Shown in pieces: positions 4,391-29,192 of a stretch of 64,000 nucleotides of DNA (the stretch's first letter is position 1; each line of letters opens with the position of its first letter). The notes beneath the pieces were generated by a model. It made no database searches and was not told the origin of the DNA. It saw only the letters and a program-made list of their open reading frames with translations. Source of the DNA: Morinoia aosen. Its lineage: Eukaryota; Arthropoda; Malacostraca; Amphipoda; Talitridae. The DNA lies in assembly GCA_030386875.1 (NCBI GenBank), contig CM059580.1, forward strand, positions 2,012,838 to 2,076,837. The letters run 5' to 3'. A program made the position numbers and the translations under genes.

Positions 4391-4615
4391 AGTGCGGCAG
4401 GACCCACCAGGAGAACTCGGGGACCCTGCGGTCTCCCCCCCACCCAAGCACTGGGGGCCCCTCCGAGGGGCACCGCTGTGAGTGGCGGATCACGGCCACT
4501 CATGGCGAGAAGATCGTCCTCAACATCACGGCGCTCGATATCTACAAGACGGAGAAGTGCACCACAGATTACCTCGAGATCCGGGATGGCGTGTGGCAGC
4601 GTGACCCTTTGCTGG
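4391..4615 (+). CDS. tld: Tolloid/BMP1-like: CUB1 domain, first exon
   Basis: Exon after a C-rich tract ending CCCCAG, with donor G|GTGGGT at 4616. It encodes 74 codons with 2 nt borrowed at the start and 1 nt at the end. The peptide holds the first part of a CUB domain: ECGRT (Cys1), HRCEWRI (Cys2), GEKIVLNITALDIY, EKC (Cys3) and the CUB calcium-site signature DYLEIRDG. The match in order and spacing is to CUB1 of tolloid/BMP1 metalloproteases, secreted enzymes that cleave chordin/Sog and procollagens. The insert PPHPSTGGPSEG is longer than usual for the family. The catalytic astacin domain would be encoded upstream and is not in the window. A 20-bp minisatellite begins right at the donor. 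The domain call is firm; tolloid rather than another CUB/EGF protein is inferred from domain order. Confidence 0.87.
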
Positions 4616-5596
4616 GTGGGTGGTAGTGCTGGTAGTGCGGGGGTAGTGCTAGTAGTGCAGTAGTAGTGCGGGGGTAGAGTTGGTAGTGCAGTGGTAGTGC
4701 TAGGGTAATGCTGGTAGTGCTGGGGCAATGCTGGTAGTGCTGGGGCAATGCTGGTAGTGCTCGGGTAATTCTGGTAATGCTGGGGTAATGCTGGTAGTGT
4801 TGGGGTAATGCTGGTAGTGCTGGGGTAATACTGATAGTGATGGGGTAATGCTGGTAGTGATGGGGTAATGCTGGTAGTGTTGGGGTAATGCTGGTAGTGC
4901 TGGGGTAATGCTGGTAGTGCTGAGGTAATGCTGGTAGTGCTGGGGTAATGCTCGTAGTGCTGGGGTAATGCTCGTAGTGCTGGGTTAAAGCTGGTAGTGC
5001 TGGGTTAAAGCTGGTAGTGCTGGGTTGAAGCTGGTAGTGCTGAGGTAATGCTGGTAGTGCTGAGGTAATGCTGGTAGTGCTGAGGTAAAGCTGGTAGTGC
5101 TGGGGTAATGCTGGTAGTACTGGGGTAATGCTGGTAGTGCTGTGGTAAAGCTGGTAGTGCTGAGGTAAAGCTGGTAGTGCTGAGGTAAAGCTGGTAGTGC
5201 TGAGGTAAAGCTGGTAGTGCTGTGGTAAAGCTGGTAGTGCTGAGGTAAAGCTGGTAGTGCTGAGGTAATGCTGGTAGTGCTGTGGTAAAGCTGGTAGTGC
5301 TGAGGTAAAGCTGGTAGTGCTGAGGTAAAGCTGGTAGTGCTGAGGTAAAGCTGGTAGTGCTGAGGTAAAGCTGGTAGTGCTGAGGTAATGCTGGTAGTGC
5401 TGTGGTAAAGCTGGTAGTGCTGAGGTAAAGCTGGTAGTGCTGAGGTAAAGCTGGTAGTGCTGAGGTAAAGCTGGTAGTGCTGAGGTAATGCTGGTAGTGC
5501 TGGGGTAATGCTGGTAGTACTGGGTTAATGCTGGTAGTGCTGGGGTAAAGCTGGTAGTGCTGAGGTAAAGCTGGTAGTGCTGGGGTAATGCTGGTA
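4616..5596. repeat. 20-bp minisatellite adjoining the CUB1 exon donor
   Basis: About 48 copies of a 20-bp unit (GCTGGTAGTGCTGAGGTAAA and variants GGGGTAATG, GTGGTAAAG). It starts directly after the splice donor GTGGGTGGTAGTGCTGG and ends abutting repeat family A copy 2 near 5600. Higher-order alternation of AAAG- and AATG-type units is visible. Confidence 0.95.
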
Positions 5597-5607
5597 ACCG
5601 CAAAAAA

Positions 5608-5905
5608 ACAAGGAAGAAAGTAGGCACTATTAGGTATGAAGGGAACGCGGAATCTATACAGAAGGGGCATGAGCATGGTAAGTTGAGAAAGAAGTATATG
5701 AAATAAGATAAAAGTTGAAGAAGAAAGCAGTAGGTGCTGGACAGCAGGACAGCAGTGAACCGAAAAAAGGTGGTCTTTAACAAAAAAATTAACATTTAAT
5801 TTCAACAACAAGAAGACCTACGTAACCCTCGGCTCGGGCCCTCACACATAGTCCCCCCTGGGAACGCTAATTCCCATAGATACAATAGTTGTGTCCCCAG
5901 AGGGA
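5608..5905 (-). repeat. Dispersed repeat family A, copy 2 (truncated)
   Basis: Inverted family A copy lacking the far 3' end: it begins in the AAGGAAGAAAGTAGGCACTATT part and ends at TGTGTCCCCAGAGGG. The truncation point coincides with the end of the 20-bp minisatellite. Confidence 0.7.
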
Positions 5906-6034
5906 AATGGGCTTGTAACCTAGATACTCAACACTGCGAGCAGCGCTACTGAGTTATAGCGATGGGTAAACTATCAGCGCACTAACTACCCGTTACAGTG
6001 GCCCCTTGTGACTAATGCCTCTTACACTCTCCAG

Positions 6035-6157
6035 GTCGGCTGTGTGGCAGCATCCTCCTGCCCTACACCGTCGTCTCACAGGGCAGTCGCCTCCTCGTCA
6101 CCTACGTCACGTCCCACAACCAGGCCGGCCACCGCGGCTTCGAAGCGCAGTACGAAG
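6035..6157 (+). CDS. tld: Tolloid/BMP1-like: CUB1 domain, second exon
   Basis: Acceptor CTCTCCAG at 6034, donor G|GTGTGT at 6158. 123 nt: 2 nt completing the Gly codon left by the previous exon, 40 codons, and 1 nt left over. The peptide begins RLCGS, supplying the fourth CUB cysteine, continues ILLPYTVVSQGSRLLVTYVT, and ends GHRGFEAQYE, the usual hydrophobic C-terminal strand of CUB1 (GKGF.A.YE in BMP1). Joined to 4391-4615 it makes a complete four-cysteine CUB domain of about 115 residues. Phase agreement on both sides supports this pairing. Confidence 0.87.
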
Positions 6158-6196
6158 GTGTGTGTAATATAAAGGATAGTGGTGACAAGGTAGAGT

Positions 6197-6699: not shown

Positions 6700-6986
6700 T
6701 CTTTTGCGGTGTTTCTCTCCGTTGGGAAAAGGGAGACCTCAGCCACAATTCCCCACTCTACCCAGGTGTCGGAAATGGGTACCGGCTTGACCGGGGGTAA
6801 CCGTCATGGCGTCCTGGTGTTAGTTGAGGCATTTGGTATACCAATGTACGGAGTGATGTGTGTCAGGCTTGGTTGGAAATAAAGCATCCTTAGATGCCGA
6901 TGTTAGTTTGTTCGTTCAACCAAGCCTGACACACACCACCTTGTACATTGGTATACCAAATGCCTCATAACTAACACCAGGACGCC
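6700..6986 (+). repeat. SINE 3' part in + orientation, meeting an inverted copy
   Basis: CCACTCTACCCAGGTGTCGG, GGGTACCGGCTTGACCGGGG and the tail GTCATGGCGTCCTGGTG run in + orientation from about 6750. The same words occur reversed at 7940-8010. Between about 6829 and 6986 the sequence is a long hairpin (GGTATACCAATGTAC... and ...GTACATTGGTATACC; CAGGCTTGGTTG and CAACCAAGCCTG). Two related SINEs appear to have inserted tail to tail. Confidence 0.65.
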
Positions 6987-7960
6987 ATGACGGTTGGTAT
7001 ATCTAATGCGTCATAACTAACACCAGGACGTCATGACGGTTGGTATATCTAATGCGTCATAACTAACACCAGGACGCCATGACGGTTGGTATATCAAGTG
7101 CCTCATAACTAACACCAGGACGCCATGACGGCTGGTATATCAAGTGCCTCATAACTAACACCAGGACGCCATGACGGTTGGTATATCAAATGCCTCATAA
7201 CTAACACCAGGACGCCATGACGGCTGGTATATCAAGTGCCTCATAACTAACACCAGGACGCCATGACGGTTGGTATATCAAATGCCTCATAACTAACACC
7301 AGGACGCCATGACGGTTGGTATATCAAATGCCTCATAACTAACACCAGGACGCCATGACGGTTGGTGTACCAAATGCCTCATAACTAACACCAGGACGCC
7401 ATGACGGTTGGTATACCAAATGCCTCATAACTAACACCAAGACGCCATGACGGTTGGTATACCAAATGCCTCATAACTAACACCAGGACGCCATGACGGT
7501 TGGTATATCAAGTGCCTCATAACTAACACCAGGACGCCATGACGGTTGGTATATCAAATGCCTCATACTTACACCAGGACGCCATGACGGTTGGTGTACC
7601 AAATGCCTCATAACTAACACCAGGACGCCATGACGGTTGGTATATCAAATGCCTCATAACTAACACCAGGACGCCATGACGGTTGGTATATCAAGTGCCT
7701 CATAACTAACACCAGGACGCCATGACGGTTGGTATACCAAATGCCTCATAACTAACACCAGGACGCTATGACGGTTGGTATATCAAATGCCTCATAACTA
7801 ACACCAGGACGCCATGACGGTTGGTGTACCAAATGCCTCATAACTAACACCAGGACGCCATGACGGTTGGTATATCAAATGCCTCATAACTAACACCAGG
7901 ACGCCATGACGGTTGGTATACCAAATGCCTCATAACTAACACCAGGACGCCATGACGGTT
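6984..7960. repeat. 46-bp minisatellite made of SINE tail units
   Basis: About 21 copies of a 46-bp unit containing TGACGGTTGGTATACCAAAT, then GCCTCATAACTAACACCAGG and ACGCCA. The unit equals the 3' tail of the minus-strand SINE that immediately follows (7950-8140), so the array looks like an expansion of the SINE tail. ATATC/ATACC and A/G variants alternate. Confidence 0.9.
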
Positions 7961-8140
7961 ACCCCCGGTCAAGCCGGTACCCATTTCCGACACCTGGGTA
8001 GAGTGGGCAATTGTGCTTTGAATTTTTCACCTATATCCAAAGGAGAAAATCGCCACATAGCGCCGGGATTCGAACCCTCGACACCTTCACGGAAGGGCGG
8101 GTTCCTTAACCATTCGGCTACGACGAGCATCCTGTACCAA
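7950..8140 (-). repeat. tRNA-derived SINE, minus strand
   Basis: On the minus strand a tRNA-like head reads GTAGCCGAATGGTTAAGG (A box) and GGGTTCGAATCCCGGCG (B box), followed by a TGGCGATTTTCTCC body and the CCCAGGTGTCGGAAATGGGT region. A functional tRNA gene is unlikely because the body continues straight into the SINE. A 15-bp minisatellite starts within 20 bp of its 5' end. Confidence 0.8.
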
Positions 8141-8504: not shown

Positions 8505-8650
8505 CGGTGTGCGGGGGGGAGCTCTCCCAGGAGGGGGGGCGGCTGGAGTCCCCCAACTACCCGGACGACTACCGCCAAGACAAGGAGTGTGTCTGGCTCA
8601 TCACCGTCCCTGAGGGCTATCAGGTGGCGCTCCGCTTCCATTCCTTCGAG
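8505..8650 (+). CDS. tld: Tolloid/BMP1-like: CUB2 domain, first exon
   Basis: Acceptor GTGTTGCAG at 8504, donor GAG|GTACTG at 8651. Two nt complete an Ala codon with the G left by 6035-6157, then 48 codons end in phase 0. The peptide starts EAVCGGELS, contains the family phrase [16 protein letters not shown] and ends ALRFHSFE, closely matching BMP1/tolloid CUB2 ([18 protein letters not shown]). It carries the first two CUB2 cysteines. The last 18 or so exon bases plus the donor are repeated four more times downstream (8709-8890 and near 9950), so the authentic donor is the first of several look-alikes. Confidence 0.88.
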
Positions 8651-8916
8651 GTACTGTCCGTCTGTTGTCCTCCTGTCCGCCTGTTGTCCTCCTGTCCGCC
8701 TGTTGTCCTCCTCCGCTTCCATTCCTTCGAGGTACTGTCCGCCTGTTGTCCTCCTGTCCGCCTGTTGTCCTCCTGTCCGCCTGTTGTCCTCCTCCGCTTC
8801 CATTCCTTCGAGGTACTGTCCGCCTGTTGTCCTCCTGTCCGCCTGTTGTCCTCCTCCGCTTCCATTCCTTCGAGGTACTGTCCGCCTGTTGAACTTGAAC
8901 TTGAACTTGAACTTGA
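8625..8916. repeat. Minisatellite built from the CUB2 exon end and donor
   Basis: Units of CGCTTCCATTCCTTCGAG followed by GTACTGTCCGCCTGTTGTCC and further CTCCTGTCCGCCTGTTGTC words recur about every 60-80 bp. The first half of each unit is coding sequence of exon 8505-8650 including its GAG|GTACTG donor. A short GAACTT microsatellite (8889-8916) ends the block. Confidence 0.9.
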
Positions 8917-9143
8917 GGGCCGACAGTGTCGGGGCCTTTGTAACGGCCTACAATTCCCTCCACAATTTTCACACAAAGAGTTCAGCGCCTGGTACCAGAC
9001 TTGTCCACTAAACTACTCAGGATCTACGATCCTTGTCACAAGCCTCCATTAGAAGGCATCACCGGGACAGCCAGTGTGTCAAAACACCATCCCCCGGCAC
9101 ATTGGGTCATTACAGCCCATTCTACCAGACTGGCTCATTCCAG

Positions 9144-9868
9144 TCACTGTCTCTTACTCCAGGCACGCACAAGAAACACTTTCATAGCCTCAGTGATACT
9201 CGCATTACACTCCTGATCCAATCCAGCAAGACAGCTCATACCGCAATCATCTTCAGCACATCTGGCATTCCACTCATTCTCTCCATACTGCTCAGACACC
9301 ACATTCATAAAACTCTCTCTCTCTTGCTCATACTTACTACATTCCAGCACAAAATGCTCAATTGTTTCCTCTACTCCACTATTACACTGCTGACATAATC
9401 TGTTATTATTCTCATTCCATCTCCATGTACGTCTGTTCACACTCAATGACTTACATCTCACAGCAAACAAGAGTTGACTTCCAAAACTACCATCATAGAA
9501 CAGCTCAAACTTAGGTGCTTTCTTTTTCATATACCAGTTAAGTGTAGGCTTCCGCATCATGCTAAGCTTCCACTTATTCAATCCATACTCTTTTGTTTGT
9601 CTCTCAATCTCTTTCTTCCACCTCTTGCAGTCCCACTCAGGCCCTACACCTCCTACATTTATTAAACTCCAGTCATCCACAGGTCTCCCAATTCTAACAT
9701 GAATAATCTTTTGCATACTGAGTTTCCTTGCATGCCCCCAACATACTTTCTCCCAATAGCTTACACTCAGATTCCATTCAAAGATTCGCCTTACCCACCT
9801 GCTATTCTGCATTCTTTCAATTCTCACCTTATAATTCAGCACAGCTTTCATCATTCTTTCTGAAAATA
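9144..9868 (-). pseudogene. Non-LTR retrotransposon ORF2 C-terminal fragment, copy 1
   Basis: A minus-strand open frame of about 240 residues ending at 9144. It contains SYWEKVCWGHARKLSMQK, a FYDGSFGSQLLFAVRCKSLS block, and a putative zinc-binding CQQCNSGVEETIEHFVLEC module (CxxC...H...C) as found near the C-terminus of I/Jockey/CR1-type ORF2 proteins. No reverse transcriptase core is present, so it is a 5'-truncated insert. Related copies lie at 56042-56758 and 61815-62040. It sits inside the intron between the two CUB2 exons and splits the donor-derived minisatellite into two blocks. The superfamily assignment is inferred from the CCHC-like module. Confidence 0.75.
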
Positions 9869-9985
9869 GGCCTCCTGTCCGCCTGTTGTCCTCCTGTCCG
9901 CCTGTTGTCCTCCTGTCCGCCTGTTGTCCTCCTGTCCGCCTGTTGTCCTCCTCCGCTTCCATTCCTTCGAGGTACTGACCGCCTG
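9869..9985. repeat. Second block of the CUB2 donor minisatellite
   Basis: CCTGTCCGCCTGTTGTCCTC repeats followed by another CTTCCATTCCTTCGAGGTAC unit, the same family as 8625-8890, resuming on the far side of the LINE fragment. The array was probably continuous before the insertion. Confidence 0.88.
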
Positions 9986-10028
9986 TCGTCCTCTTGTCTA
10001 CACCGCATACCAATAATACCACCATGAT

Positions 10029-10386
10029 GTGTACCGTGCAGATCGAGAACCATACCCTGCAGATAGAGAACCATACCCTGCAGATAGAGAACCATACCCT
10101 GCAGATCGAGAACCATACCCTGCAGATAGAGAACCATACCCTGCAGATCGAGAACCATACCCTGCAGATAGAGAACCATACCCTGCAGATAGAGAACCAT
10201 ACCCTGCAGATAGAGAACCATACCCTGCAGATAGAGAACCATACCCTGCAGATAGAGAACCATACCCTGCAGATAGAGAACCATACCCTGCAGATAGAGA
10301 ACCATACCCTGCAGATAGAGAACCATACCCTACAGATCGAGAACCACGATGGAGATTGGACCATGACCGCACTGTGTACCGTGCAG
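10029..10386. repeat. 21-bp minisatellite of the CUB2b splice acceptor
   Basis: About 15 copies of CTGCAGATAGAGAACCATAC plus one base, then two diverged copies ending at the real acceptor GTGCAG|ATCGAGAACCAC. Each unit repeats an AG dinucleotide and the first codons (Ile-Glu-Asn-His) of exon 10387-10582. Up to 16 decoy 3' splice sites therefore precede the true one. Confidence 0.93.
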
Positions 10387-10582
10387 ATCGAGAACCACGA
10401 CGAGTGCGTCTACGACTACCTGGACATCCGGGACGGTCACGGCGACAACGACACGCTGATAGGCGTGTACTGCGGCTACAAGCTGCCGGACGACGTCAAG
10501 AGCGTCTCAAACAAGATGAGGATCAAGTTTGTGACCGATGGGTCCGTGCAGAAGGCGGGCTTCTCGGCAACCTTCATGAAAG
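10387..10582 (+). CDS. tld: Tolloid/BMP1-like: CUB2 domain, second exon
   Basis: Acceptor CCGTGCAG at 10386, donor G|GTGAGT at 10583; 65 codons plus 1 nt. Joined in phase 0 to 8505-8650 the junction reads [20 protein letters not shown], mirroring BMP1 CUB2 SFEIERHD.C.YDYLE.RDG. It carries Cys3 and Cys4 (DEC, YCGY), the calcium-site DYLDIRDG, and ends [13 protein letters not shown], the usual CUB2 C-terminal strand before EGF1. Because upstream repeat units also carry AG|AT-GAGAACCA, the acceptor was chosen by homology to the SFE-IE junction, by phase and as the most 3' copy. Confidence 0.88.
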
Positions 10583-10846: not shown

Positions 10847-10969
10847 AGTACGACGAGTGTGCGGGCACGGACCACGGCTGCGGGCACCGCTGCATCAACC
10901 AGCTCGGCGGGTACGAGTGTCAGTGCAACATCGGCTACGAGCTCCACTCTGATGGGCGGCGTTGCGAGG
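10847..10969 (+). CDS. tld: Tolloid/BMP1-like: EGF1 (calcium-binding type)
   Basis: Acceptor CACCCGCAG at 10846, donor G|GTGAGG at 10970. Phase 2 start (AG joins the G left upstream to make Glu), 40 codons, 1 nt left over. The peptide [16 protein letters not shown], then [17 protein letters not shown], then SDGRRCE has six cysteines in EGF order and the DEC...C..LGGY.C.C..GYEL pattern of calcium-binding EGF modules, as in tolloid EGF1 directly after CUB2. The next exon should start CUB3, but what follows is a 1.5-kb G-rich repeat and then an assembly gap. No further tolloid exon is seen to the right. Confidence 0.88.
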
Positions 10970-12442
10970 GTGAGGGGGTGTGTGGTGAGTGTGTGGAGTG
11001 TGTGGAGTGTGTGGGGTGTGTGGTGTATTGGGGGGTGGGGAGTGTGTGGGATGTGTGGCGTATTGGGGGGTGGGGAGTGTGTGGGGTGTGTGGCGTATTG
11101 GGGGGGTAGAGTGTGTGGGGTGTGTGGTGTATTGCGGGGTGGGGAGTGTGTGGAGTGTGTGGGGTGTGTGGTGTATTGGGGGGTGGGGAGTGTGTGGGAT
11201 GTGTGGCGTATTGGGGGGTGGGGAGTGTGTGGGGTGTGTGGCGTATTGGGGGTGGGGAGTATGTGGGGTGTGTGGTGTATTGGGGGGTGGGGAGTGTGGG
11301 GAGTGTGTGGAGTGTGTGGGGTGTGTGGTGTATTGGGGGGGTGGGGAATGTGTGGGGTGTGTGGCGTATTGGGGGGTGGGGAGTGTGTGGGGTGTGTGGC
11401 GTATTGGGGGTGGGGAGTATGTGGGGTGTGTGGTGTATTGGGGGGTGGGGAGTGTGGGGAGTGTGTGGAGTGTGTGGGGTGTGTGGTGTATTGGGGGGTG
11501 GGGAATGTGTGGGGTGTGTGGCGTATTGGGGGGTGGGGAGTGTGTGGGGTGTGTGGCGTATTGGGGGTGGGGAGTATGTGGGGTGTGTGGTGTATTGGGG
11601 GGTGGGGAGTGTGTGGAGTGTGTGGGGTGTGTGGTGTATTGGGGGGTGGGGAGTATGTGGAGTGTGTGGGGTGTGTGGTGTATTGGAGGGGGGGGAGTGT
11701 GTGGGGTGTATTGGGGGGTGGGGAGTGTGTGGAGTGTGTGGGGTGTGTGGTGTATTGGGGGGTGGGGAGTGTGTGGGATGTGTGGCGTATTGGGGGGTGG
11801 GGAGTGTGTGGGGTGTGTGGCGTATTGGGGGTGGGGAGTATGTGGGGTGTGTGGTGTATTGGGGGGTGGGGAGTGTGGGGAGTGTGTGGAGTGTGTGGGG
11901 TGTGTGGTGTATTGGGGGGTGGGGAATGTGTGGGGTGTGTGGCGTATTGGGGGGTGGGGAGTGTGTGGGGTGTGTGGCGTATTGGGGGTGGGGAGTATGT
12001 GGGGTGTGTGGTGTATTGGGGGGTGGGGAGTGTGGGGAGTGTGTGGAGTGTGTGGGGTGTGTGGTGTATTGGGGGGTGGGGAATGTGTGGGGTGTGTGGC
12101 GTATTGGGGGGTGGGGAGTGTGTGGGGTGTGTGGCGTATTGGGGGTGGGGAGTATGTGGGGTGTGTGGTGTATTGGGGGGTGGGGAGTGTGTGGGGTGTG
12201 TGGTGTATTGGGGGGTGGGGAGTATGTGGAGTGTGTGGGGTGTGTGGTGTATTGGAGGGGGGGGAGTGTGTGGGGTGTGGGGTGTATTGGGGGGTGGGGA
12301 GTGTGTGGAGTGTGTGGGGTGTGTGGTGTATTGGGGGGTGGGGAGTGTGTGGGATGTGTGGCGTATTGGGGGGTGGGGAGTGTGTGGGGTGTGTGGCGTA
12401 TTGGGGGTGGGGAGTATGTGGGGTGTGTGGTGTATTGGGGGT
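10970..12442. repeat. G-rich minisatellite (about 35 bp) after the EGF1 donor
   Basis: GTGTGGGGTGTGTGGCGTAT with TGGGGGGTGGGGAGT words repeat about 40 times, arranged in higher-order blocks of three to five units. It begins at the EGF1 splice donor (GTGAGGGGGTGTGTGG) and runs into the N gap. The + strand is very G-rich with many GGGG runs, so G-quadruplex formation and assembly trouble are plausible. Confidence 0.95.
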
Positions 12443-12942
12443 NNNNNNNNNNNNNNNNNNNNNNNNNNNNNNNNNNNNNNNNNNNNNNNNNNNNNNNNNN
12501 NNNNNNNNNNNNNNNNNNNNNNNNNNNNNNNNNNNNNNNNNNNNNNNNNNNNNNNNNNNNNNNNNNNNNNNNNNNNNNNNNNNNNNNNNNNNNNNNNNNN
12601 NNNNNNNNNNNNNNNNNNNNNNNNNNNNNNNNNNNNNNNNNNNNNNNNNNNNNNNNNNNNNNNNNNNNNNNNNNNNNNNNNNNNNNNNNNNNNNNNNNNN
12701 NNNNNNNNNNNNNNNNNNNNNNNNNNNNNNNNNNNNNNNNNNNNNNNNNNNNNNNNNNNNNNNNNNNNNNNNNNNNNNNNNNNNNNNNNNNNNNNNNNNN
12801 NNNNNNNNNNNNNNNNNNNNNNNNNNNNNNNNNNNNNNNNNNNNNNNNNNNNNNNNNNNNNNNNNNNNNNNNNNNNNNNNNNNNNNNNNNNNNNNNNNNN
12901 NNNNNNNNNNNNNNNNNNNNNNNNNNNNNNNNNNNNNNNNNN
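12443..12942. other. Assembly gap of exactly 500 N
   Basis: All bases are N. A round 500 usually marks a gap of unknown size placed by a scaffolder. The repeat to the left (35-bp G-rich) differs from the one to the right (31-bp), so two arrays are joined across it. Confidence 0.99.
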
Positions 12943-19775: not shown

Positions 19776-19804
19776 CAACATAATGCCTTTCCCCGATGCC
19801 ACAG

Positions 19805-20019
19805 GACCGCAGCCGTGAGGAAAGCGACGGCAGCCTACCCCCCTCTCCCAGCAGGGACCCCCCCGCCCCCCCAGACCCACACCCGTGGGGGCCTGCACTC
19901 CCCTGACCGTGTCCCCCCCACGGGGGCACAACCCGCCCCTGCTGGTGGGGGAGGTGGTGGGTCTAATGCAGCCCTGCAGCAGCAGCAGCAGCAGCTGCCT
20001 GACCTCAAACCTCAGCACG
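19805..20019 (+). CDS. Spn: Neurabin/spinophilin-like: linker exon with an apparent +1 frameshift
   Basis: Acceptor GATGCCACAG at 19804, donor G|GTGAGG at 20020. Entering in phase 0 from 17006-17320 gives DRSREESDGSLPPSPSRDP, which then reaches a stop. The +1 frame instead continues to a Gly-rich stretch, a six-Gln run and LPDLKPQH, and leaves the 1 nt needed by the next exon. The exon is 215 nt, one more than phase requires. C7 runs near 19857-19873 are the likely site of one extra C, either an assembly error or a real lesion. Phase matching is satisfied on both sides only with that single-base excess. Confidence 0.65.
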
Positions 20020-20039
20020 GTGAGGCCCTTGTTTCCCCT

Positions 20040-20665
20040 CCACCTCTCTTCAGTGTGGCCTCAGTGTTGCCTCAGTGTTTGCTCCTCAGTGTGGCCTCGG
20101 GTCCTGTCCTCAGTGTGGCCTCGGGTCCTGTCCTCGGTGTGGCCTCGGGTCCTGTCCTCGGTGTGGCCTCGGGTCCTGTCCTTGGTGTGGCCTCGGGTCC
20201 TGTCCTCGGTGTGGCCTCGGGTCCTGTCCTCGGTGTGGCCTCGGGTCCTGTCCTCGGTGTGGCCTCGGGTCCTGTCCTCGGTGTGGCCTCGGGTCCTGTC
20301 CTCGGTGTGGCCTCGGGTCCTGTCCTCGGTGTGGCCTCGGGTCCTGTCCTCGGTGTGGCCTCGGGTCCTGTCCTCGGTGTGGCCTCGGGTCCTGTCCTCG
20401 GTGTGGCCTCGGGTCCTGTCCTCGGTGTGGCCTCGGGTCCTGTCCTCGGTGTGGCCTCGGGTCCTGTCCTCGGTGTGGCCTCGGGTCCTGTCCTCAGTGT
20501 GGCCTCGGGTCCTGTCCTCAGTGTGGCCTCGGGTCCTGTCCTCGGTGTGGCCTCGGGTCCTGTCCTCGGTGTGGCCTCGGGTCCTGTCCTCAGTGTGGCC
20601 TCGGGTCCTGTCCTCAGTGTGGCCTCGGGTCCTGTCCTCGGTGTGGCCTCGGGTCCTCTCTTCAT
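20040..20665. repeat. 24-bp minisatellite after the 20019 donor
   Basis: About 25 copies of GTGTGGCCTCGGGTCCTGTC+CTCG, starting some 30 bp after the donor. The first copies are degenerate (GTGTGGCCTCAGTGTTGCCT), marking the older end. 24 bp is a multiple of three, so all frames stay open. Confidence 0.95.
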
Positions 20666-21019
20666 TGTCACGTGACCTCTCCTTTTGCTGCACTTAGCAC
20701 TACCGTCGAGCTGAGCAAAACCTGCGTCAGCACCATTTTGATTGAAAGTGAAATTTTTCTGGCGATATTGACCGAGTCTCTCGGTTGATAACTCAGAACT
20801 TGTGCTCTAGCACGTTGCTTGCTATACGTCCCATCGTTGGGTCGTTTGAAAAATTCCAACCTCTTTTAAATCTCTGGTATCTAATGGACCCATTTGATGC
20901 TTTCCATTTATGTTATGAACTGCTAATCACTCGAGTTGAACATCGAACTTCAGTTCAACCCATCGCAGTCAATGCGTCAGAAGACCAAACGTGAGACTCA
21001 TTTTGTTTCCCCTTCCCAG

Positions 21020-21407
21020 GAGCGTCGCCGCCCCCCTACACACCGCCCCCCGCCGCGCCCCCCAAGCACCCCCCTCCCGTGGCCCGTGTCCTGCCCGTCA
21101 ACCGGCCTGCTGACCTGCCTGAGCCTCCTTTGCCCGATGGCCTGCAGCAACAATTGACCCAACAACAACAGTTGACCCAGCAGCAACAGCTCGTCCAACA
21201 GCAACAATTGACCCAACAACAGCAGCTGGCTCAGCAACAACAGCTCGTCCAACAGCAACAGCTGGCTCAACAACAACAATTGACCCAACAACAGCAGCTG
21301 GCCCAACAGCAACAGCTGGCTCAGCAACAACAGCAGATGGTGTCTTCTCCCCGCCCGCCACAGCCAACAAACCTCGCCATGCAGCTAAAGTCTCTCCTGA
21401 CTCAGAG
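21020..21407 (+). CDS. Spn: Neurabin/spinophilin-like: Pro-rich and poly-Gln exon
   Basis: Acceptor CTTCCCAG at 21019, donor AG|GTGGGT at 21408; 2 nt, 128 codons, 2 nt. It opens ASPPPYTPPPAAPPKHPPP, continues VARVLPVNRPADLPEPPL, then about eleven 15-bp units encoding QLTQQ/QLAQQ/QLVQQ, and ends NLAMQLKSLLTQ. The Gln array is a coding minisatellite of CAG/CAA with CTG/TTG every fifth codon, giving a Leu every five residues. The incoming GA joins the G from exon 19805-20019 to make Gly. The outgoing AG joins A at 22436 to make Arg. Such disordered Q-rich linkers are common in arthropod scaffolds and say little about function. Confidence 0.75.
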
Positions 21408-21775
21408 GTGGGTTTCTCTGGGTGCTGGGCTGGTCAGGTCATTAGTGGGCTTTAAATGTCATAGGTGGTAGGTCTTTAGAGGTCATTAGAGATCATCAAT
21501 GGTCATTCGTGTCAGGTGTTTAGTGGTCATATGAAGTCAATAGTGACAGGCAGCCTTGATTAGGGTGGAAAGTGCTTTATTATAATCTATTTTTCCACTG
21601 AAATTCGAGCCGTGTACCGTCCAAACTCGACGATTTGCAGAGTCGAGTTCCCGGAAAACCTTTGGTGCCTTGGTGCTCTCTTGCTTGAAGGGACAACTAA
21701 AATAGTCTCTGGCCGAAGTTATCGTCAACTAAATTTATTCTTATTGAGCAAGCCTCCAAGAGCTGAAACACTTAG

Positions 21776-22040
21776 GGCCTGTTGACACGATCATTGAGTG
21801 CGCGCGTGAGCAGTGAAGAGAGGCGCGAGCCCCGCTCACTTGCTCTTACGATAACGATTATATAATGATTTATTAATTATATAAATGAATAACGATTATG
21901 TAATGTGCTTTTGCTGAAATGATGTGAATTTTGTAATTTTTGGACTGTGAGACCTACGGCGCGACATAAGCGCTAGCAAATCGATGCTAATACTACTACT
22001 ATTTGCTCTTGCTTTAGGTTCATTTACTGCTCAATGACTG
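21776..22040. mobile_element. MITE family B, partial copy
   Basis: GCCTGTTGACACGATCATTG and AGTGCGCGCGTGAGCAGTGA match the ends of the complete copy at 35364-35669, and TTCATTTACTGCTCAATGAC matches its interior. The right half is lost or replaced by TATATAATGATT-type AT-rich DNA. It sits in an intron. Confidence 0.65.
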
Positions 22041-22274
22041 CCTCTAAGCCTCCAAGAGCCCTTGGCTCCTGAAGGTGCCTGCGCAGCACAATGCACATAA
22101 TGTCTACGTAGAGCTGGGTTGCCACCGCCCCTGGAGAAGGTGCTGGCATGTCAAGGGTGGTGTGATGGTCAGGAAAGTGTTGTGTGTGCTGTGGTGTAGG
22201 GCTGTGTGGAGGGACCTCACTCCCTAGTGGTGCGCCTCCCCGGCGGTGGTGCGCAGCGGTAGTCGGGTGTAGCT

Positions 22275-22430
22275 GGGGCTCATGTCCCCCCTTGGTGCTC
22301 ATGTCCCCCCTTGGTGCTCATGTCCCCCCTTGGTGCTCATGTCCCCCCTTGGTGCTCATGTCCCCCCTTGGTGCTCATGTCCCCTCTTTGGTGCTCATGT
22401 TCCCTTGGTACTCATGTCCCCTTGGTGCTC
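22275..22430. repeat. 19-bp minisatellite up to the 22435 acceptor
   Basis: Seven or so copies of CATGTCCCCCCTTGGTGCT. The last, degenerate unit (CCCCTTGGTGCTCCCCAG) is the polypyrimidine tract and AG of the next exon, so the array is made of acceptor sequence. Confidence 0.9.
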
Positions 22431-22435
22431 CCCAG

Positions 22436-22539
22436 AGGCGTGGAGGCAGAGAGCGTGGTGGCGGGCGCAGGTCATCGCAGGTCCCCTTCTTCCCTCATGG
22501 AGGACGTGAGGCAGGCCGTGCTGGAGGCCGACCTGCAGT
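22436..22539 (+). CDS. Spn: Neurabin/spinophilin-like: short linker exon
   Basis: Acceptor GTGCTCCCCAG at 22435, donor T|GTGAGT at 22540; 1 nt, 34 codons, 1 nt. The peptide starts GVEAESVVAGAGHRRSPSSL and ends MEDVRQAVLEADLQ. The last part is an amphipathic helix. The outgoing T joins TG of exon 23942-24033 to give Leu (DLQ-L-GKKPH). Assignment to the gene rests on phase agreement and position rather than on recognised homology. Confidence 0.72.
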
Positions 22540-22785
22540 GTGAGTAGTGAGGCAGGCCAGACATTATAACAACAATACAATATCAACTGAACATAGGAAT
22601 TTTCCAGTGTCAGTAGTGATTCAGAACAACAATAACGGGACGCAATAAAGGAATTGCCCAGGGGTGGCTGTACGAAGAAGCAAGCATGCAATATACGAGT
22701 ACATGGAATTGAAGTGCTTTACTAAAGACAGCGTGTGATTTGAGGCCTCAACCGCCACACTGTGTGTAGGTGTGGCCATGGTACC

Positions 22786-23667
22786 GCACCTTCCCTCAGA
22801 TGGGAGTCATTTCCTTTCCTCAGATGGGAGTCATTTCCTTTCCTCAGATGGGAGTCGGTACCTTCCCTCAGATGGGGAGTCATTACCTTCCCTCAGATGG
22901 GAGTCATTTCCTTTCCTCAGATGGGAGTCGGTACCTTCCCTCTGATGGGGAGTCGGTACCTTCCCTCTGATGGGGAGTCATTACCTTCCCTCAGATGGGA
23001 GTCATTTCCTTTCCTCAGATGGGAGTCATTACCTTCCCTCTGATGGGAGTCAGTACCTTCCCTCTGATGGGAGTCATTACCTTCCCTCAGATGGGAGTCA
23101 TTTCCTTTCCTCAGATGGGAGTCATTACCTTCCCTCTGATGGGAGTCAGTACCTTCCCTCTGATGGGAGTCAGTACCTTCCCTCAGATGGGAGTCAGTAC
23201 CGTCTCTCAGATGGAAGTCATTACCTTCCCTCAGATGGGAGTCATTTCCTTCACTCAGATGGGAGTCATTTACTTTCCTCAGATGGTAGTCAGTACCTTC
23301 CCTCAGATGGAAGTCATTACCTTCCCTCAGATACGAGTCATTACCTTCCCTCAGATACGAGTCATTACCTTCCCTCAGATACGAGTCATTACCTTCCCTC
23401 AGATACGAGGCATTACCTTCCCTCAGATACGAGTCATTACCTTCCCTCAGATACGAGTCATTACCTTCCCTCAGATACGAGTCATTACCTTCCCTCAGAT
23501 ACGAGTCATTACCTTCCCTCAGATACGAGTCATTACCTTCCCTCAGATACGAGTCATTACCTTCCCTCAGATACGAGTCATTACCTTCCCTCAGATACGA
23601 GGCATTACCTTCCCTCAGATACGAGTCATTACCTTCCCTCAGATACGAGTCATTACCTTCCCTCAGT
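22786..23667. repeat. 23-25-bp minisatellite CCTCAGATGGGAGTCATTACCTTC
   Basis: About 37 copies. The left half is CAGATGGGAGTCATTTCCTT with TGATGGG variants, and the right half is homogeneous CAGATACGAGTCATTACCTT. The array ends exactly where a family A fragment begins (CCTCAG|TAGGATGCAAC). Confidence 0.95.
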
Positions 23668-23760
23668 AGGATGCAACTTTTGTATCTATGAGATTTGGCA
23701 CTCCCGGGGGAAAATGGGAGGTCCCCATCTTAGAGTTAAGTAGGCCTTCTTTTTTTTTGA
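23668..23760 (+). repeat. Dispersed repeat family A, copy 4 (5' fragment)
   Basis: TTTTGTATCTATGAGATTTG, GCACTCCCGGGGGAAAATGG and TTAGAGTTAAGTAGGCCTTC match the first 90 bp of family A. It directly follows the last minisatellite unit. Confidence 0.65.
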
Positions 23761-23865
23761 GTCAAGTTGTCTTTGCAAAATCGGGGATGACCGCAACAAT
23801 TGCGTGTTTTTTTTCCTCTTTCTTCAATAGAGAAATAACTTATGTGTCACCCCCTCCCTCCCTAC

Positions 23866-23941
23866 AGTGGGCAAGTATCTAATTCCCCCCCCCCCTCAGT
23901 GGGCAAAAATCTAATTTCTCCCTCCCCCCCCCCCCCTCCAG
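23866..23941. repeat. Triplicated splice acceptor
   Basis: CAGTGGGCAAG/CAGTGGGCAAA occurs three times (from about 23866, 23898 and 23939), each preceded by a C-rich tract. Only the last continues into the open exon TGGGCAAGAAGCCCCAC. The units, about 32 to 41 bp, are duplications of polypyrimidine tract + AG + exon start. Confidence 0.8.
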
Positions 23942-24033
23942 TGGGCAAGAAGCCCCACATCTCGGCCCCGCTGCACGTCTCCTCCACCGCGCAGATCGTC
24001 ACCACGGGCCGTCTCGACGCGCAGCACATCTCT
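23942..24033 (+). CDS. Spn: Neurabin/spinophilin-like: linker exon
   Basis: Acceptor CCCTCCAG at 23941, donor TCT|GTGAGT at 24034; 2 nt then 30 codons ending in phase 0. The peptide is GKKPHISAPLHVSSTAQIV then TTGRLDAQHIS. Two further acceptor-like copies lie within 80 bp upstream. The most 3' one is the copy whose following sequence stays open to a consensus donor in the right phase. No domain is recognised. Confidence 0.75.
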
Positions 24034-24344
24034 GTGAGTTGTGTTGTGTGTGTTGTGTGACTTGTATGGGTTGTGTTTTTGTGTGTTGTGAGAGCTATTT
24101 TTAATGCAAATGTTCTATATTGTGAGAGTTGTATTGTTTGTTGCGATGTGAGTATTGCATTTTGAGTTTGGTGAGTATTTTAATGTGTGGTGTGAGGTTA
24201 CAGACTGCCACATGCCACACCAGTTCCCCATACCACACGAGTTGCCTCATAACATACTCTGCCACATGCTCCACATGCCCTTTCTCATACTCCCCGCCCC
24301 CCCCCCCCCCCCCTCTCATGCTCTCCTTTCCACCCCCCCGCCAG

Positions 24345-24468
24345 ATCCAGGAGTCGACGACCTCCATAGCGATCGGTGCCCCCAACGCAGGCCCCGCACC
24401 CCCCGCAGCGTGGGCCGTGCAGGGCCTCGTGTGCTCCACCCAGCGCCCCGCCGTCTCTGAGGCCCCAG
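24345..24468 (+). CDS. Spn: Neurabin/spinophilin-like: linker exon
   Basis: Acceptor CCCGCCAG at 24344 after a pure C tract, donor G|GTTTGT at 24469; 41 codons plus 1 nt. The peptide is IQESTTSIAIGAPNAGPAPP then AAWAVQGLVCSTQRPAVSEAP. The leftover G pairs with AT at 25514 to give Asp. The donor GTTTGT is weaker than the others, and the minisatellite that follows repeats this same junction, so an alternative donor within the array cannot be excluded. Confidence 0.7.
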
Positions 24469-24737
24469 GTTTGTTGTGTGGGGCCCTGTGGGTGTTGTGT
24501 GGGGCCCTGTGGGTGTTGTGTGGGGCCCTGTGGGTGTTGTGTGGGGCCCTGTGGGTGTTGTGTGGGGCCCTGTGGGTGTGTGGGGCCCTGTGGGTGTTGT
24601 GTGGGGCCCTGTGGGTGTTGTGTGGGGCCCTGTGGGTGTTGTGTGGGGCCCTGTGGGTGTTGTGTGGGGCCCTGTGGGTGTTGTGTGGGGCCCTGTGGGT
24701 GTTGTGTGGGGCCCTGTGGGTGTTGTGTGGGGCCCTT
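24469..24737. repeat. 21-bp minisatellite starting at the 24468 donor
   Basis: About 12 copies of GGCCCTGTGGGTGTTGTGTG plus one base. The exon end plus donor, GGCCCCAGGTTTGTTGTGTG, matches the unit at most positions, so the array appears to have grown from the exon/intron junction. One unit has lost 3 bp near 24577. Confidence 0.92.
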
Positions 24738-25513
24738 CATTTTTGTGTGACGATAGGTTTTGTGCAATGTACCTATTTAGAGCTACAGCTTTTCTGGCCT
24801 ATGATTTACCTCCATGGCTTTAAATTTGGTTCGCAAATATTGATCCCAAGACGAGAAAGACAGGATTTTAGTCTAGACTGAAAAATGTGTCAGGCGTTTT
24901 GGCCGAGCCAAGTCTACGGTGGTGGCGTTGCTGGCGGTAGCTCGCGGCTCCACACCCGATGTTTGTCGTGAGCACAAACCCATCCCTGACGCCCTCTAAC
25001 GACTTCTAAGGCAGCTGGCAACCTTATAGAAAGAGAAGCAAAATCCTACTGTTACTGCTGCGGCTAGGGTTCTGTACCCGGACCGAGGGTCCGAGTAGGT
25101 TCAAATCTTTTTTGCGGTGACCGTTAAACTAGGCTTTTGTTGCGAGTGACTCACTCCCTACATGCTGCTCTTTATACCTTTTGTGTGTGTTCTGCTCTGA
25201 GTGTTCCATGTTAGCTGACCCTGAAGTGGCACACATGTGTACCACCAGGTAAATTGTTCATTTACGTACCGGAACATACAAATAACATTCCAACTATTTT
25301 GCTACCTTTTCCGAAATGAATTTTAGAGTGAAAGGTAACACATTATGGTTCAAGTGTATTCTTTACACTTTTCAAAAAGGTTAAAAATGTATTAGAGCAG
25401 AAATGCTGGTTTTTCAAAACGACTTCTTTTAGCCTAACCAAAATGACCGTAAGCAAGCGCACAATCGGAGTCAACGTGTTGATAGGATTCACATTCATAC
25501 CTTGTACTTGCAG
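24738..25513. other. Intron, no feature recognised
   Basis: Ordinary-looking intron DNA between a minisatellite and the acceptor CTTGTACTTGCAG. There is a GC-richer patch at 24890-25010 of possible SINE origin, but no clear A/B boxes. Confidence 0.4.
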
Positions 25514-26160
25514 ATGACGGTCAGCGTGCGCTGCCAACTACTCAGACCACCGCCACCACCTCCGCCGCCGCCGCCACCTCCACCACCTCCAGCAGCAGCA
25601 GGACGTCGGTGCTGGGAGGCTGGTCCCCATTCCAGACCCTTAGGAGCGTGGTGGGGTCCACAGGGGGGAGCGCCGCTCCCAGCAACGTGGTCCTTATTGG
25701 CAAGCGGCACATTGAGGTGGACCAAAGCGTCGTGCCTGTGGGAGACTACCCCCCTGCACCCCCATCCGCCTTCCCCCCCTCCTCCACTGCCGCCTCCCCC
25801 GCCACCACCCTCGAGAGGGCCGCCAAAGGGGTCCACCCCTTGCCCCCCATCCATGACCCCCTCAACTACCACCCCCACCAGAAGCACCTTCATCACCACC
25901 ATCATCACCACATCCAGCAGCAGAATGTGCAGCAGCAACAGCAGATCCAGCTCCAACAGCAGCTACAGCAACAACAGCAGCTACAGCAACAACAGCAGCT
26001 ACAGTATCAGCAGCAGCTGGAGTTGCAGCGACAGCAACAGCAGCAACAACAGCTGCAACAACAACAACAACAGCAGCAACAGCAAGTGTATGCCACTCTG
26101 GACAACTCAGCTGCAGCCAACTTTGCTAGCGTGCCCTCTTGTGATTGGTCAGTCGAGCAG
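25514..26160 (+). CDS. Spn: Neurabin/spinophilin-like: low-complexity exon ending in the start of the SAM domain
   Basis: Acceptor TACTTGCAG at 25513; donor CAG|GTGGGT at 26161; 2 nt plus 215 codons, phase 0 at the end. It encodes DGQRALPTTQTTATTSAAAA, Ser/Thr runs, an ordered-looking block (LGGWSPFQTLRSVVGST, NVVLIGKRHIEVDQSVVPVG), a Pro-rich part, a seven-His run, a long Gln-rich tract, then VYATLDNSAAANFAS and CDWSVEQ. The last words are the canonical start of a SAM domain (W.VE.V..WL), completed by exon 28811-28963. The donor was chosen because SVEQ-VVQWLQ restores the SAM helix and because both exons are phase 0. The exon end and donor are the seed of the following 2.4-kb array. Confidence 0.8.
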
Positions 26161-28566
26161 GTGGGTGGCTTCGTGTGATTGATCAGTCGAGCAGGTGGGT
26201 GCTCTCTTGTGATTGGTCAGTCGAGCAGGTGGGTGGCTTCGTGTGATTGATCAGTCGAGCAGGTGGGTGGCCTCTTGTGATTGGTTAGTCGAACAGGTGG
26301 GTGGCTTCGTGTGATTGGTCAGTCAAGCTGGTTGGTGGCTTCGTGTGATTGGTCAGTCGAGCTGGTGGGTGGCTTCGTGTGATTGGTCAGTCGAGCTGGG
26401 GGGCGGCCTCTTGTGATTGGTCAGTCGAGCTGATGGGCGGCCTCTTGTGATTGGTCAGACGAGCTGATGGGTGGCTTCTTGTGATTGGTCAGTCGAGCTG
26501 ATGGGCGGCCTCTTGTGATTGGTCAGTCGAGCTGGTGGGTGGCCTCTTGTGATTGGTCAGTCGAGCTGATGGGCGGCCTCTTGTGATTGATCAGTCGAGC
26601 TGGTGGGTGGCCTCTTGTGATTGGTCAGTCGAGCTGGTGGGCAGCCTCTTGTGATTGGTCAGTCGAGCTGGTGGGTGGCCTCTTGTGATTGGTCAGTCGA
26701 GCTGGTGGGCGGCCTCTTGTGATTGGTCAGTCGAGCTGGTGGGTGGCCTCTTGTGATTGGTCAGTCGAGCTGATGGGCGGCCTCTTGTGATTGGTCAGTC
26801 GAGCTGGTGGGTGGCCTCTTGTGATTGGTCAGTCGAGCTGATGGCCGGCCTCTTGTGATTGGTCAGTCGAGCTGGGGGGCGGCCTCTTGTGATTGGTCAG
26901 TCGAGCTGATGGGCGGCCTCTTGTGATTGGTCAGTCGAGCTGGTGGGTGGCCTCTTGTGATTGGTCAGTCGAGCTGATGGGCGGCCTCTTGTGATTGGTC
27001 AGTCGAGCTGGTGGGTGGCCTCTTGTGATTGGTCAGTCGAGCTGGTGGGCGTCCTCTTGGGATTGGTCAGTCGAGCTGATGGGTGGCTTCGAGTGATTGG
27101 TCAGTCGAGCTGATGGGTGGCCTCTTGTGATCGGTCAGTCGAGCTGATGGGTGGCTTCGAGTGATTGGTCAGTCGAGCTGATGGGCGGCCTCTTGGGATT
27201 GGTCAGTCGAGCTGATGGGTGGCTTCGAGTGATTGGTCAGTCGAGCTGATGGGTGGCTTCGAGTGATTGGTCAGTCGAGCTGATGGGTGGCTTCGAGTGA
27301 TTGGTCAGTCGAGCTGATGGGTGGCCTCTTGTGATTGGTCAGTCGAGCTGATGGGTGGCTTCGAGTGATTGGTCAGTCGAGCTGATGGGTGGCCTCTTGT
27401 GATTGGTCAGTCAAGCTGATGGGTGGCTTCGAGTGATTGGTCAGTCGAGCTGATGGGCGGCCTCTTGGGATTGGTCAGTCGAGCTGATGGGTGGCTTCGA
27501 GTGATTGGTCAGTCGAGCTGGTGGGTGGCCTCTTGTGATTGGTCAGTCGAGCTGGTGGGCGGCCTCTTGTGATTGGTCAGTCGAGCTGATGGGTGGCTTC
27601 GAGTGATTGGTCAGTCGAGCTGATGGGTGGCTTCGAGTGATTGGTCAGTCGAGCTGATGGGTGGCTTCGAGTGATTGGTCAGTCGAGCTGATGGGTGGCT
27701 TCTTGGGATTGGTCAGTCGAGCTGATGGGTGGCTTCGAGTGATTGGTCAGTCGAGCTGATGGGTGGCCTCTTGTGATTGGTCAGTCGAGCTGATGGGTGG
27801 CTTCGAGTGATTGGTCAGTCGAGCTGATGGGTGGCCTCTTGTGATTGGTCAGTCGAGCTGATGGGTGGCTTTGAGTGATTGGTCAGTCGAGCTGATGGGC
27901 GGCCTCTTGGGATTGGTCAGTCGAGCTGATGGGCGGCCTCTTGTGATTGGTCAGTCGAGCTGATGGGTGGCCTCTTGTGATTGGTCAGTCGAGCTGATGG
28001 GCGGCCTCTTGTGATTGGTCAGTCGAGCTGATGGGCGGCCTCTTGTGATTGGTCAGTCGAGCTGATGGGCGGCCTCTTGTGATTGGTCAGTCGAGCTGAT
28101 GGGCGGCCTCTTGTGATTGGTCAGTCGAGCTGATGGGCGGCCTCTTGGGATTGGTCAGTCGAGCTGATGGGCGGCCTCTTGGGATTGGTCAGTCGAGCTG
28201 ATGGGTGGCTTCTTGGGATTGGTCAGTCGAGCTGATGGGCGGCCTCTTGTGATTGGTCAGTCGAGCTGATGGGCGGCCTCTTGTGATTGGTCAGTCGAGC
28301 TGGTGGGTGGCCTCTTGTGATTGGTCAGTCGAGCTGGTGGGCGGCCTCTTGGGATTGGTCAGTCGAGCTGATGGGTGGCTTCGAGTGATTGGTCAGTCGA
28401 GCTGGTGGGCGGCCTCTTGTGATTGGTCAGTCGAGCTGGTGGGTGGCCTCTTGTGATTGGTCAGTCGAGCTGATGGGTGGCTTCGAGTGATTGGTCAGTC
28501 GAGCTGGTGGGCGGCCTCTTGGGATTGGTCAGTCGAGCTGATGGGTGGCTTCGAGTGATTGGTCAG
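26130..28566. repeat. 34-bp minisatellite copied from the SAM exon end and donor
   Basis: About 70 copies of GATTGGTCAGTCGAGCTGAT plus GGGTGGCCTCTTGT. The first copy is genuine coding sequence (CCTCTTGTGATTGGTCAGTC encoding PSCDWSV, then GAGCAG|GTGGGT). Early copies keep GAGCAGGTGGGT. Later ones carry GAGCTGGTGGGT, then GAGCTGATGGGT, in which the donor GT is lost. CTTCGAGTG/CTCTTGTG variants form higher-order patterns. Confidence 0.97.
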
Positions 28567-28717
28567 TTGCAACACTTTTGTTGTAGCGTGAAAAGTTTTC
28601 TGGTTGTGTTAGCAGTTTCTTTTCCGTCTAATTGCGATGAATTTGCATCATGATTTTGACTTACTGACACAGTGTAGGACGAGCTGTTCTTGTTGAGATG
28701 CACTGTTATCATGCGTG

Positions 28718-28813
28718 GTGCAGTGGCTGCAGTGCAGGCAGTGCAGTTTGCTGTATGTGCAGGTGGTGCAGTGGCTGCAGTGCAGGCAGTGCAGTTTGCT
28801 GTATGTGCAGGTG
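28718..28813. repeat. 48-bp duplication of the SAM exon acceptor
   Basis: Two full 48-bp units lie before the true exon, each with GTGCAGTGGCTGCAGTGCAG and TTTGCTGTATGTGCAGGTG. Each unit contains an acceptor TGTATGTGCAG and the exon start GTGGTGCAGTGGCTGCAG. 48 bp is 16 codons, so the frame stays open through the copies. Confidence 0.88.
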
Positions 28814-28963
28814 GTGCAGTGGCTGCAGTGCAGTGGGCTGGGGCAGTGCACAGCACAGTTCAGAGCGGCAGGCGTGACCGGGACTCGACTTCTCAACCTC
28901 GACGCGCGGGACCTCAAGTTGCTGGCCGAGTGTAGTGAGGATCGGAGCTGTATTAAACGCAAG
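28811..28963 (+). CDS. Spn: Neurabin/spinophilin-like: main SAM-domain exon
   Basis: Acceptor TATGTGCAG at 28810, donor AAG|GTGGGT at 28964; 51 codons in phase 0. The peptide VVQWLQCSGLGQCTAQFRAA, then GVTGTRLLNLDARDLKLLAE, ends DRSCIKRK. Together with SVEQ of the previous exon it gives a complete SAM fold pattern: W.VE.V..WL...GL.....F....VTG..LL.L...DLK.L......R..IKRK. SAM is present in neurabin-type members of the family and mediates oligomerisation. A duplicated copy of the acceptor 48 bp upstream could give a form with 16 extra residues in frame. Confidence 0.82.
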
Positions 28964-29192
28964 GTGGGTGTGTTGTGGCATGTGTGGGTGTGTGTTGTGG
29001 GGTGTGTGGGTGTGTGTTGTACCGTGTGTGAGGGTGGGTGTGTTGCAGCAGCAGGTTGTGCCGGCAAGACGGGGCTTGTTTTGCAGCCGCTCTTCAGAAC
29101 ACGTTTGTTTTGGTTGAGGCAGCCTTTGCAAACTAACCTAATCCTGAACTAGTTATGCATCATGCCCTTAACCTCCTTTCTCTTTTACGCAG

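Follow-up and report, generated by a model that had tools for sequence, protein, structure and literature searches.

Why do so many of the tandem repeats in two neighbouring genes of the talitrid amphipod Morinoia aosen begin or end at splice sites? The window, a stretch of 64,000 nucleotides (nt) of contig CM059580.1 (GenBank assembly GCA_030386875.1, positions 2,012,838 to 2,076,837, forward strand), contains parts of two plus-strand genes across approximately 4.4–29.3 kb, its left half. The gene models provide 29 splice sites, 15 acceptors and 14 donors, with support that is uneven among sites. At six of the 29, the repeat unit of an adjoining array includes a part of the exon together with the splice signal, and both donors (3) and acceptors (3) are affected. 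The arrays are quite probably boundary-spanning minisatellites of the type called ‘mirages’ in amphioxus, derived from small tandem duplications across existing junctions.

The copied junctions were recognized with a probe of 12 exon and 12 intron nt (24 nt in all), for which the junction’s own intron was scored against 15 other introns. Six junctions found a better match in the intron they belong to than anywhere in the 15 others: the donors 26160 (own-intron score 24.0, best elsewhere 8.0), 8650 (22.0 against 8.0) and 16547 (18.0 against 12.5), and the acceptors 28811 (24.0 against 12.0), 10387 (23.0 against 9.5) and 23942 (16.0 against 9.5), the last being the weakest of the six. Copy-by-copy listings place the exon part and the splice signal in register at all six, in agreement with the preliminary description of this stretch, which had put the number of such repeat units at six or more. 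With an exon-only probe of 30 nt, the own intron came first at 5 of the 29 sites – the copied six minus 23942 – and at none of the 24 others. The lowest of these five scores was 14, a value reached at 5 of 29 exon borders but in less than 1% of 974 interior-exon comparisons. Donor 22539 passes the filter with a score of 12.5, but its match includes 3 exon nt and lies outside the arrays called by Tandem Repeats Finder (TRF), and it was treated as chance rather than as a seventh copied junction.

In the 34-bp array that begins at 26131, the 27-nt exon-derived part has 0–6 mismatches to the exon copy in all 71 units. The last 17 nt of the coiled-coil exon are matched exactly (17/17) in the far-end unit of the 16536 array. 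The TRF-called part of the 10032 array stops at 10346, 40 nt short of the exon. The 8630 array is apparently split by a probable non-LTR (long terminal repeat) retroelement tail at 8889–9870 on the minus strand, with a (TTGAAC)n end; it was identified by the appearance of its open reading frame (ORF), and Pfam returned nothing for it.

Gene 1 is tolloid/BMP1-like, with two CUB domains and an EGF-like domain in Pfam (CUB E=2.6e-24 for exons 1 and 2 joined). A BMP1-like protein of Armadillidium had the top identity, 72%, in the tolloid alignment; in another comparison the same protein matched at 61% over 86% of the query, and insect records at 65–67% over 39–61%. Gene 2 is neurabin-like. It encodes a coiled coil as well as a SAM domain, and the best solved-structure match of the latter is neurabin-1; a Scylla protein (61%) is the sole named match of the SAM exons. 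Taken by themselves, the protein matches of the two genes point to a probable malacostracan. Gene 2 was modelled as ten tentative exons from 16362 to 29319. The junction of tolloid exons 3 and 4 (E3-E4) and the SAM junction were placed by protein alignments without gaps across them, and tblastn matches stop at 8650–8653 and 16550 and begin at 28808. Since the repeat copies are similar to tolloid exon 4, matches to this exon begin at least 6 nt upstream of 10387, and once at 10279. A single coil homologue matches from 16329, so the acceptor at 16362 is not settled. Exons 2–7 of gene 2 are based mainly on open frames and GT/AG signals; the frame of one neurabin-like exon, 19805–20019, joins its neighbours uncleanly, possibly through a homopolymer error or a missed intron.

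Twelve splice sites had been listed earlier as touched by arrays. Besides the six that are spanned, five are abutted by an array (Table 1), and junction and exon-only probes found no clear copy of exon sequence at these five. The twelfth site, 16361, is not touched: the nearest array with a score of at least 50 stops 68 nt away, and a weak 15-mer repeat (score 47) reaches 16350. The observation is real, and about half as extensive as claimed.

Table 1. Arrays at splice junctions and exons of the two genes, in window coordinates
Feature	Position	Strand	Basis
Probable donor mirage whose 62/81-bp units carry TTCGAG (exon end) and GTACTG (donor); real junction and three decoys	8630–8888	+	TRF, copy listing
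Continuation of the 8630 array past the inserted element; fourth decoy junction at 9966–9977	9871–9982	+	TRF, copy listing
Probable acceptor mirage, 21-bp units; 15 decoy acceptors ahead of the real one	10032–10398	+	TRF, copy listing
Probable donor mirage, ~20-bp units; 12 decoys listed	16536–16802	+	TRF, copy listing
Probable acceptor mirage, three copies of a pyrimidine tract with AG/TGGGCAA; the last is the real junction 23942	23852–23951	+	copy listing
Probable donor mirage; 34-bp units that join the final 27 nt of the exon to the donor, 71 in all, starting with the real junction	26131–28567	+	TRF, unit listing
Probable acceptor mirage, 48-bp units, 2.5 copies; the final half-copy is the SAM exon start	28715–28833	+	TRF, copy listing
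Abutting 20-bp array, ~49 copies; starts 0 nt (merged array) or 6 nt (best TRF row) after donor	4616–5596	+	TRF
Abutting GTGTGGGG-type array, 5 nt past donor 10969; runs into assembly gap	10975–12441	+	TRF
Abutting 19-bp array, ends 5 nt ahead of acceptor 22436	22274–22430	+	TRF
Abutting 21-bp array, starts 3 nt past donor 24468	24472–24736	+	TRF
Abutting 22-bp GTGTGTTG-type repeat, 4 nt past donor 28963, score 98	28968–29041	+	TRF
Tolloid-like exon 1 of window (first part of CUB domain)	4391–4615	+	Pfam, tblastn
Tolloid-like exon 2	6035–6157	+	protein alignment, tblastn
Tolloid-like exon 3 (last 21 nt belong to repeat unit)	8505–8650	+	protein alignment, tblastn
Tolloid-like exon 4	10387–10582	+	protein alignment, tblastn
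Tolloid-like exon 5 (EGF-like)	10847–10969	+	Pfam, tblastn
Neurabin-like coiled-coil exon (acceptor not settled)	16362–16547	+	tblastn
Neurabin-like SAM-domain exon	28811–28963	+	Pfam, structure match, tblastn

The arrays were compared with a null model in which intron arrays are placed at random within their own introns and may reach into exons by up to 30 nt. Seven of the 15 intron arrays with a TRF score of at least 100 have an edge no more than 6 nt from a splice site, versus 1.7 expected (p=0.00025, and 0.00035 in a repeat run); the window was chosen because the pattern was seen in it, so that these and the following p values are post hoc and do not speak for the genome. A null model confined to introns was even more extreme. 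Five arrays overlap a border or abut it at 0 nt, versus 1.4 expected (p=0.007), and one of the five, at 4616, merely abuts. By TRF cut-off, the arrays within 6 nt were 9 of 19 at a score of at least 50 (p=0.00015), 7 of 13 at 200 (p<0.0001) and 4 of 10 at 400 (p=0.007). In gene 2 they were 5 of 8 (p=0.001). The earlier proposal that arrays lie nearer to exon borders than random placement predicts is supported within the window, mostly through the arrays that contain exon sequence.

A simple series of events could produce such arrays. A small tandem duplication (~20 to 80 bp) would straddle an existing exon/intron junction, and the gene would survive with one outer copy still providing an intact exon end and splice signal. 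The remaining copies would drop into the intron, where they would be free to multiply. With growth of the array, the surplus decoy signals would have to be harmless – they could decay, stay in frame, or lose to the authentic site – and selection would let junction-spanning duplications persist. We infer that duplication came before expansion, and the exon-side copy is predicted to be the one used in splicing. The border excess also suggests, as speculation, that the junction sequence itself (G/T-rich donors, pyrimidine-rich acceptors) may seed slippage.

Several points weigh against this origin. Use of the exon-side copy is deduced from homology only, and a survival filter alone would not make arrays commoner at borders than inside introns. 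Within the 34-bp array, similarity to the exon sequence is no higher for near copies than for distant copies (Spearman 0.06, p=0.59). Probes of 30 nt from exon interiors sometimes score high, with a maximum of 22.5 in the 974 comparisons. The excess rests on few arrays in one window: if the four exon-containing arrays are left out, 3 of 11 remain at 6 nt or less from a splice site (p=0.08) and 5 of 11 at 30 nt or less (p=0.018).

Two further ideas on the history of the arrays were set aside. Outward growth from the exon found no support in the 34-bp array, which shows no similarity gradient. The idea of ‘ghost mirages’, in which non-touching intron arrays were seeded at splice sites since lost, was unsupported by a strand comparison of consensus units. 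Among 21 arrays with a score of at least 100 between 3500 and 29325, a donor-like score of at least 5 was reached by 3 sense-strand and 4 antisense-strand consensus units, and for acceptor-like scores the numbers were 3 and 2. Among the 13 non-touching arrays the numbers were 2 and 4 for donors and 1 and 1 for acceptors; a Wilcoxon test for donors gave p=0.10. The comparison is a weak one, with donor weights taken from textbook frequencies and an improvised acceptor score that gave the real 10032 unit only 3.1.

Compatible with duplication across existing junctions, and possible although on the unlikely side, is a hotspot at the junctions themselves: G-rich donors and C-rich acceptor tracts would form G-quadruplexes (G4) or R-loops in transcription and replication and so trigger duplication. 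The first 50 nt after donors contain 39% G and 32% T, versus 24% and 28% in intron middles, and the six donor flanks without an array still contain 34% G. On the non-template strand, strict G4 motifs occur in 2 of 14 donor flanks; on the template strand, they occur in 3 of 15 acceptor flanks. Their frequency is 0.00, to two decimals, in 467 interior windows. Human splice junctions are enriched in G4 motifs and short tandem repeats, according to extracts of one study (PMC9065059). However, the arrays themselves could account for the base composition. Nor are the consensus units G4-like at 8630, 10032 and 26131, where the mirages are clear, and the sample is tiny.

Could the arrays simply occupy so much of the introns that some inevitably touch exons and were picked out? 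In the 13 introns with both ends known, arrays with a TRF score of at least 50 cover 9667 of 16,373 bases (59%), versus 18% of exon bases and 10% of the region from 36 to 64 kb. Chance placement is also favoured by the post hoc choice of the window and by the loss of significance without the four exon-containing arrays, in gene 1 alone (2 of 7, p=0.12) and among the six largest arrays, those with a score of at least 1000 (2 of 6, p=0.16). However, the random placements described above yield far fewer arrays at or near borders than the numbers found, and the contrast between exon borders and exon interiors in the 30-nt probe scores also argues against chance, which is improbable as the whole explanation.

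Selection had been proposed to remove arrays elsewhere in exons, and this is half right. Five TRF arrays do lie inside exons, and the period is divisible by 3 in four of them, which indicates that in-frame arrays survive; a general process of tandem duplication under a filter of selection would be expected to leave this pattern.

In the 34-bp array, CAG/GTGGGT is retained by the real junction and by the four decoys that follow it (units one to five), and later units have CTG. GT is intact in 24 of 71 units, including the real one, and has been lost in 47 of 70 decoys. Within the donor window, position −2 is changed most often (66 of 70 decoys), followed by +1 (45 of 70). Change is not confined to the splice signal: in 68 of 70 decoys, the exon-derived part is altered at its first base. 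Eighteen GT-bearing units score 6.0 to 7.5, higher than several donors used in these genes. GT is kept in 5 of 12 decoys of the 16536 array, where the seven without GT are consecutive and in the middle, and in all four decoys of the small 8630 array.

Reading frame was also followed through the decoys. All 15 decoys upstream of acceptor 10387 are in frame and open, as are the sole decoy with a true AG at acceptor 28811, the nearer of two at acceptor 23942, and two of the four at donor 8650. Of the 12 decoys in the 16536 array, the first is out of frame and 11 sit behind in-frame stops; in the 26131 array, the first seven decoys examined for frame all sit behind a stop. The split is suggestive, within the limit that copies in one array are not independent: at acceptors, the nearest decoys remain in frame and open, while most decoys of the two larger donor arrays no longer have GT. 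A broader reading, which we regard as unlikely, is that junctions in this lineage are a general nursery of minisatellites on terms set by the spliceosome, in which acceptor arrays would persist if their decoys are in frame and open and donor arrays would enlarge after the decoy donor is disabled. If so, the arrays would be a natural record of the surplus splice sites that the genome tolerates.

The open acceptor decoys could instead mean that arrays are kept for a role in splicing, as extra acceptors that give in-frame variants, with the G-rich donor flanks as intronic enhancers. Extracts of two papers offer parallels: the length of a variable number tandem repeat (VNTR) alters splicing of human ABCA7 (PMC5954066), and a Caenorhabditis elegans minisatellite is over-represented near alternative splicing regions (PMC4039745). 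However, copies share their frame by descent, which leaves approximately five independent distances, four of them multiples of 3 (p~0.045). The inserts would fall inside the CUB or SAM domain, and none was present in the homologues aligned. A role of this kind is quite improbable.

The age of the introns was judged from 120 homologous proteins or fragments, in which match start or end points within 4 residues of a tolloid junction were counted. There were 10 at E1-E2, 37 at E2-E3, 3 at E3-E4 and 33 at E4-E5, of which some start points are merely chosen start codons. At E3-E4, where the intron carries arrays at both ends, a partial Ladona record (P0032) halts at the junction, and Timema (P0077) and P0097 records begin there after unrelated residues; many other homologues read through and may be cDNA or lack the intron. 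At the K-V junction of neurabin, all three homologues found diverge just after K/R-V, as in a translated intron. These two introns, both met in other animals, hold three of the six copied junctions. From their presence in other animals we conclude that both are older than their arrays, which would have grown on existing junctions.

This bears on a further explanation, in which tandem duplication of an AGGT-bearing exon segment created the introns and the arrays stand at their ends by origin. Intron gain of this kind, the Rogers model, has been described for potato RdRp and for ATP2A1, with splice signals duplicated by tandem duplication (PMC4974935), and has been proposed for lancelet mirages (PMC3087553), as far as the extracts of these papers go. 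Tandem duplication copies splice signals in the amphipod window too, and the SAM intron reads CAG/GTGG at both junctions. Unlike the introns of the Rogers model, the two mirage introns amenable to a check appear old: neither the E3-E4 nor the K-V intron is absent from relatives as a gain would imply, and no new intron is shown. Nor does one duplicated AGGT segment account for both donor and acceptor in introns 8651–10386 and 26161–28810, the pair that have an array at each end: their donor-side and acceptor-side units differ in sequence. Intron gain is very unlikely.

Mis-assembly of repeats is just as improbable an explanation; a gap of 500 N lies between two arrays and cuts off both genes, but the units bear many point differences in mixed order, the arrays run into unique exon sequence and one is seemingly split by an inserted element, so that copy number could be wrong and the junction copies hardly.

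Duplication across existing junctions has precedents, and the statement in the preliminary description that splice-site seeding on this scale had not been described does not survive comparison with lancelets and one human gene; what follows is drawn from extracts of the papers cited. In amphioxus, mirages in Adh3, the globins BflGb6 and BflGb9, TnC and PGBD5 are minisatellite-like tandem copies of an exon/intron boundary (PMC3087553, PMC3902484). They occur at 5’ and 3’ boundaries, with units of 10–72 bp (Adh3) to 150–160 bp (globin) and many copies with AG/GT (PMC3087553, PMC3902484), and reverse transcription PCR suggests regular splicing (PMC3087553). The arrays described here are likewise tandem copies of either boundary with splice signals in the copies. 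They differ in belonging to another phylum, in involving six junctions of two adjacent genes, one with 71 units, in the loss of GT from most decoys of the two larger donor arrays, and in being known from DNA alone. In human ABCA7, a 25-bp VNTR array in intron 18 includes the exon 18 donor, and a donor one unit downstream is used in some transcripts and gives a frameshift (PMC5954066). The 26131 array similarly includes the authentic donor and further copies, and use of the next-unit donor would cause a frameshift in this 34-bp array too. The ABCA7 array differs in that it begins at the donor GT, is described as intronic, varies in length in association with disease, and is a single locus.

Among crustaceans, penaeid shrimp genomes are rich in simple sequence repeats, with very many tandem repeats, some in introns; these have short units, and arrays at splice junctions are not mentioned in the extracts of that report (PMC7878876). 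No junction-spanning minisatellite of a crustacean was among the matches listed in a search of the open-licence literature. The kind of array is known; what is newly added is its host, a crustacean, and its density, with six junctions copied out of 29 in the two genes. With boundary minisatellites described in lancelets and one human gene, a dense independent case in a crustacean would show recurrence across animals. Arrays of ready-made decoys are also natural experiments on spliceosome choice among near-identical sites, and on intron lengthening. A practical point is that exon ends at loci of this sort may be misplaced by gene-finding programs; the assembly’s one gap falls between two arrays.

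That gap, of exactly 500 N at 12443–12942, is where both genes break off. A tblastn search with 12 homologues (E<=1e-3) found no further exons of gene 1 downstream or of gene 2 upstream, which makes it probable that far more than 500 bases are missing or that unrelated contigs were joined.

Other elements in the window include one at 6744–8015 with 82-bp inverted ends that are 99% complementary. Within it, a 46-bp, 22-copy array (6948–7960) overlaps the element’s right end, and so probably grew from a transposon end and not a splice site. An Rfam scan found no family at the gathering threshold, ARAGORN reported one doubtful tRNA at 39375, irrelevant to the arrays, and scans of viral and genome contigs with the tolloid alignment found nothing useful, the single match being bacterial (31%). 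A 287-bp tandem duplication with 99% matches lies at 156–729. Downstream of gene 2 and outside the exons found, there are three large arrays with units of 31, 16 and 41 bp (30337–34501). An LTR-type retrotransposon at 45518–52450 has an open ORF of 1810 amino acids with a Pao peptidase domain, and one and the same 39-bp tandem repeat recurs to its left and right, presumably within the LTRs. The region of this element is flanked by two 182-bp arrays, 36528–37458 and 53574–54184, with units alike by eye and in opposite orientation.

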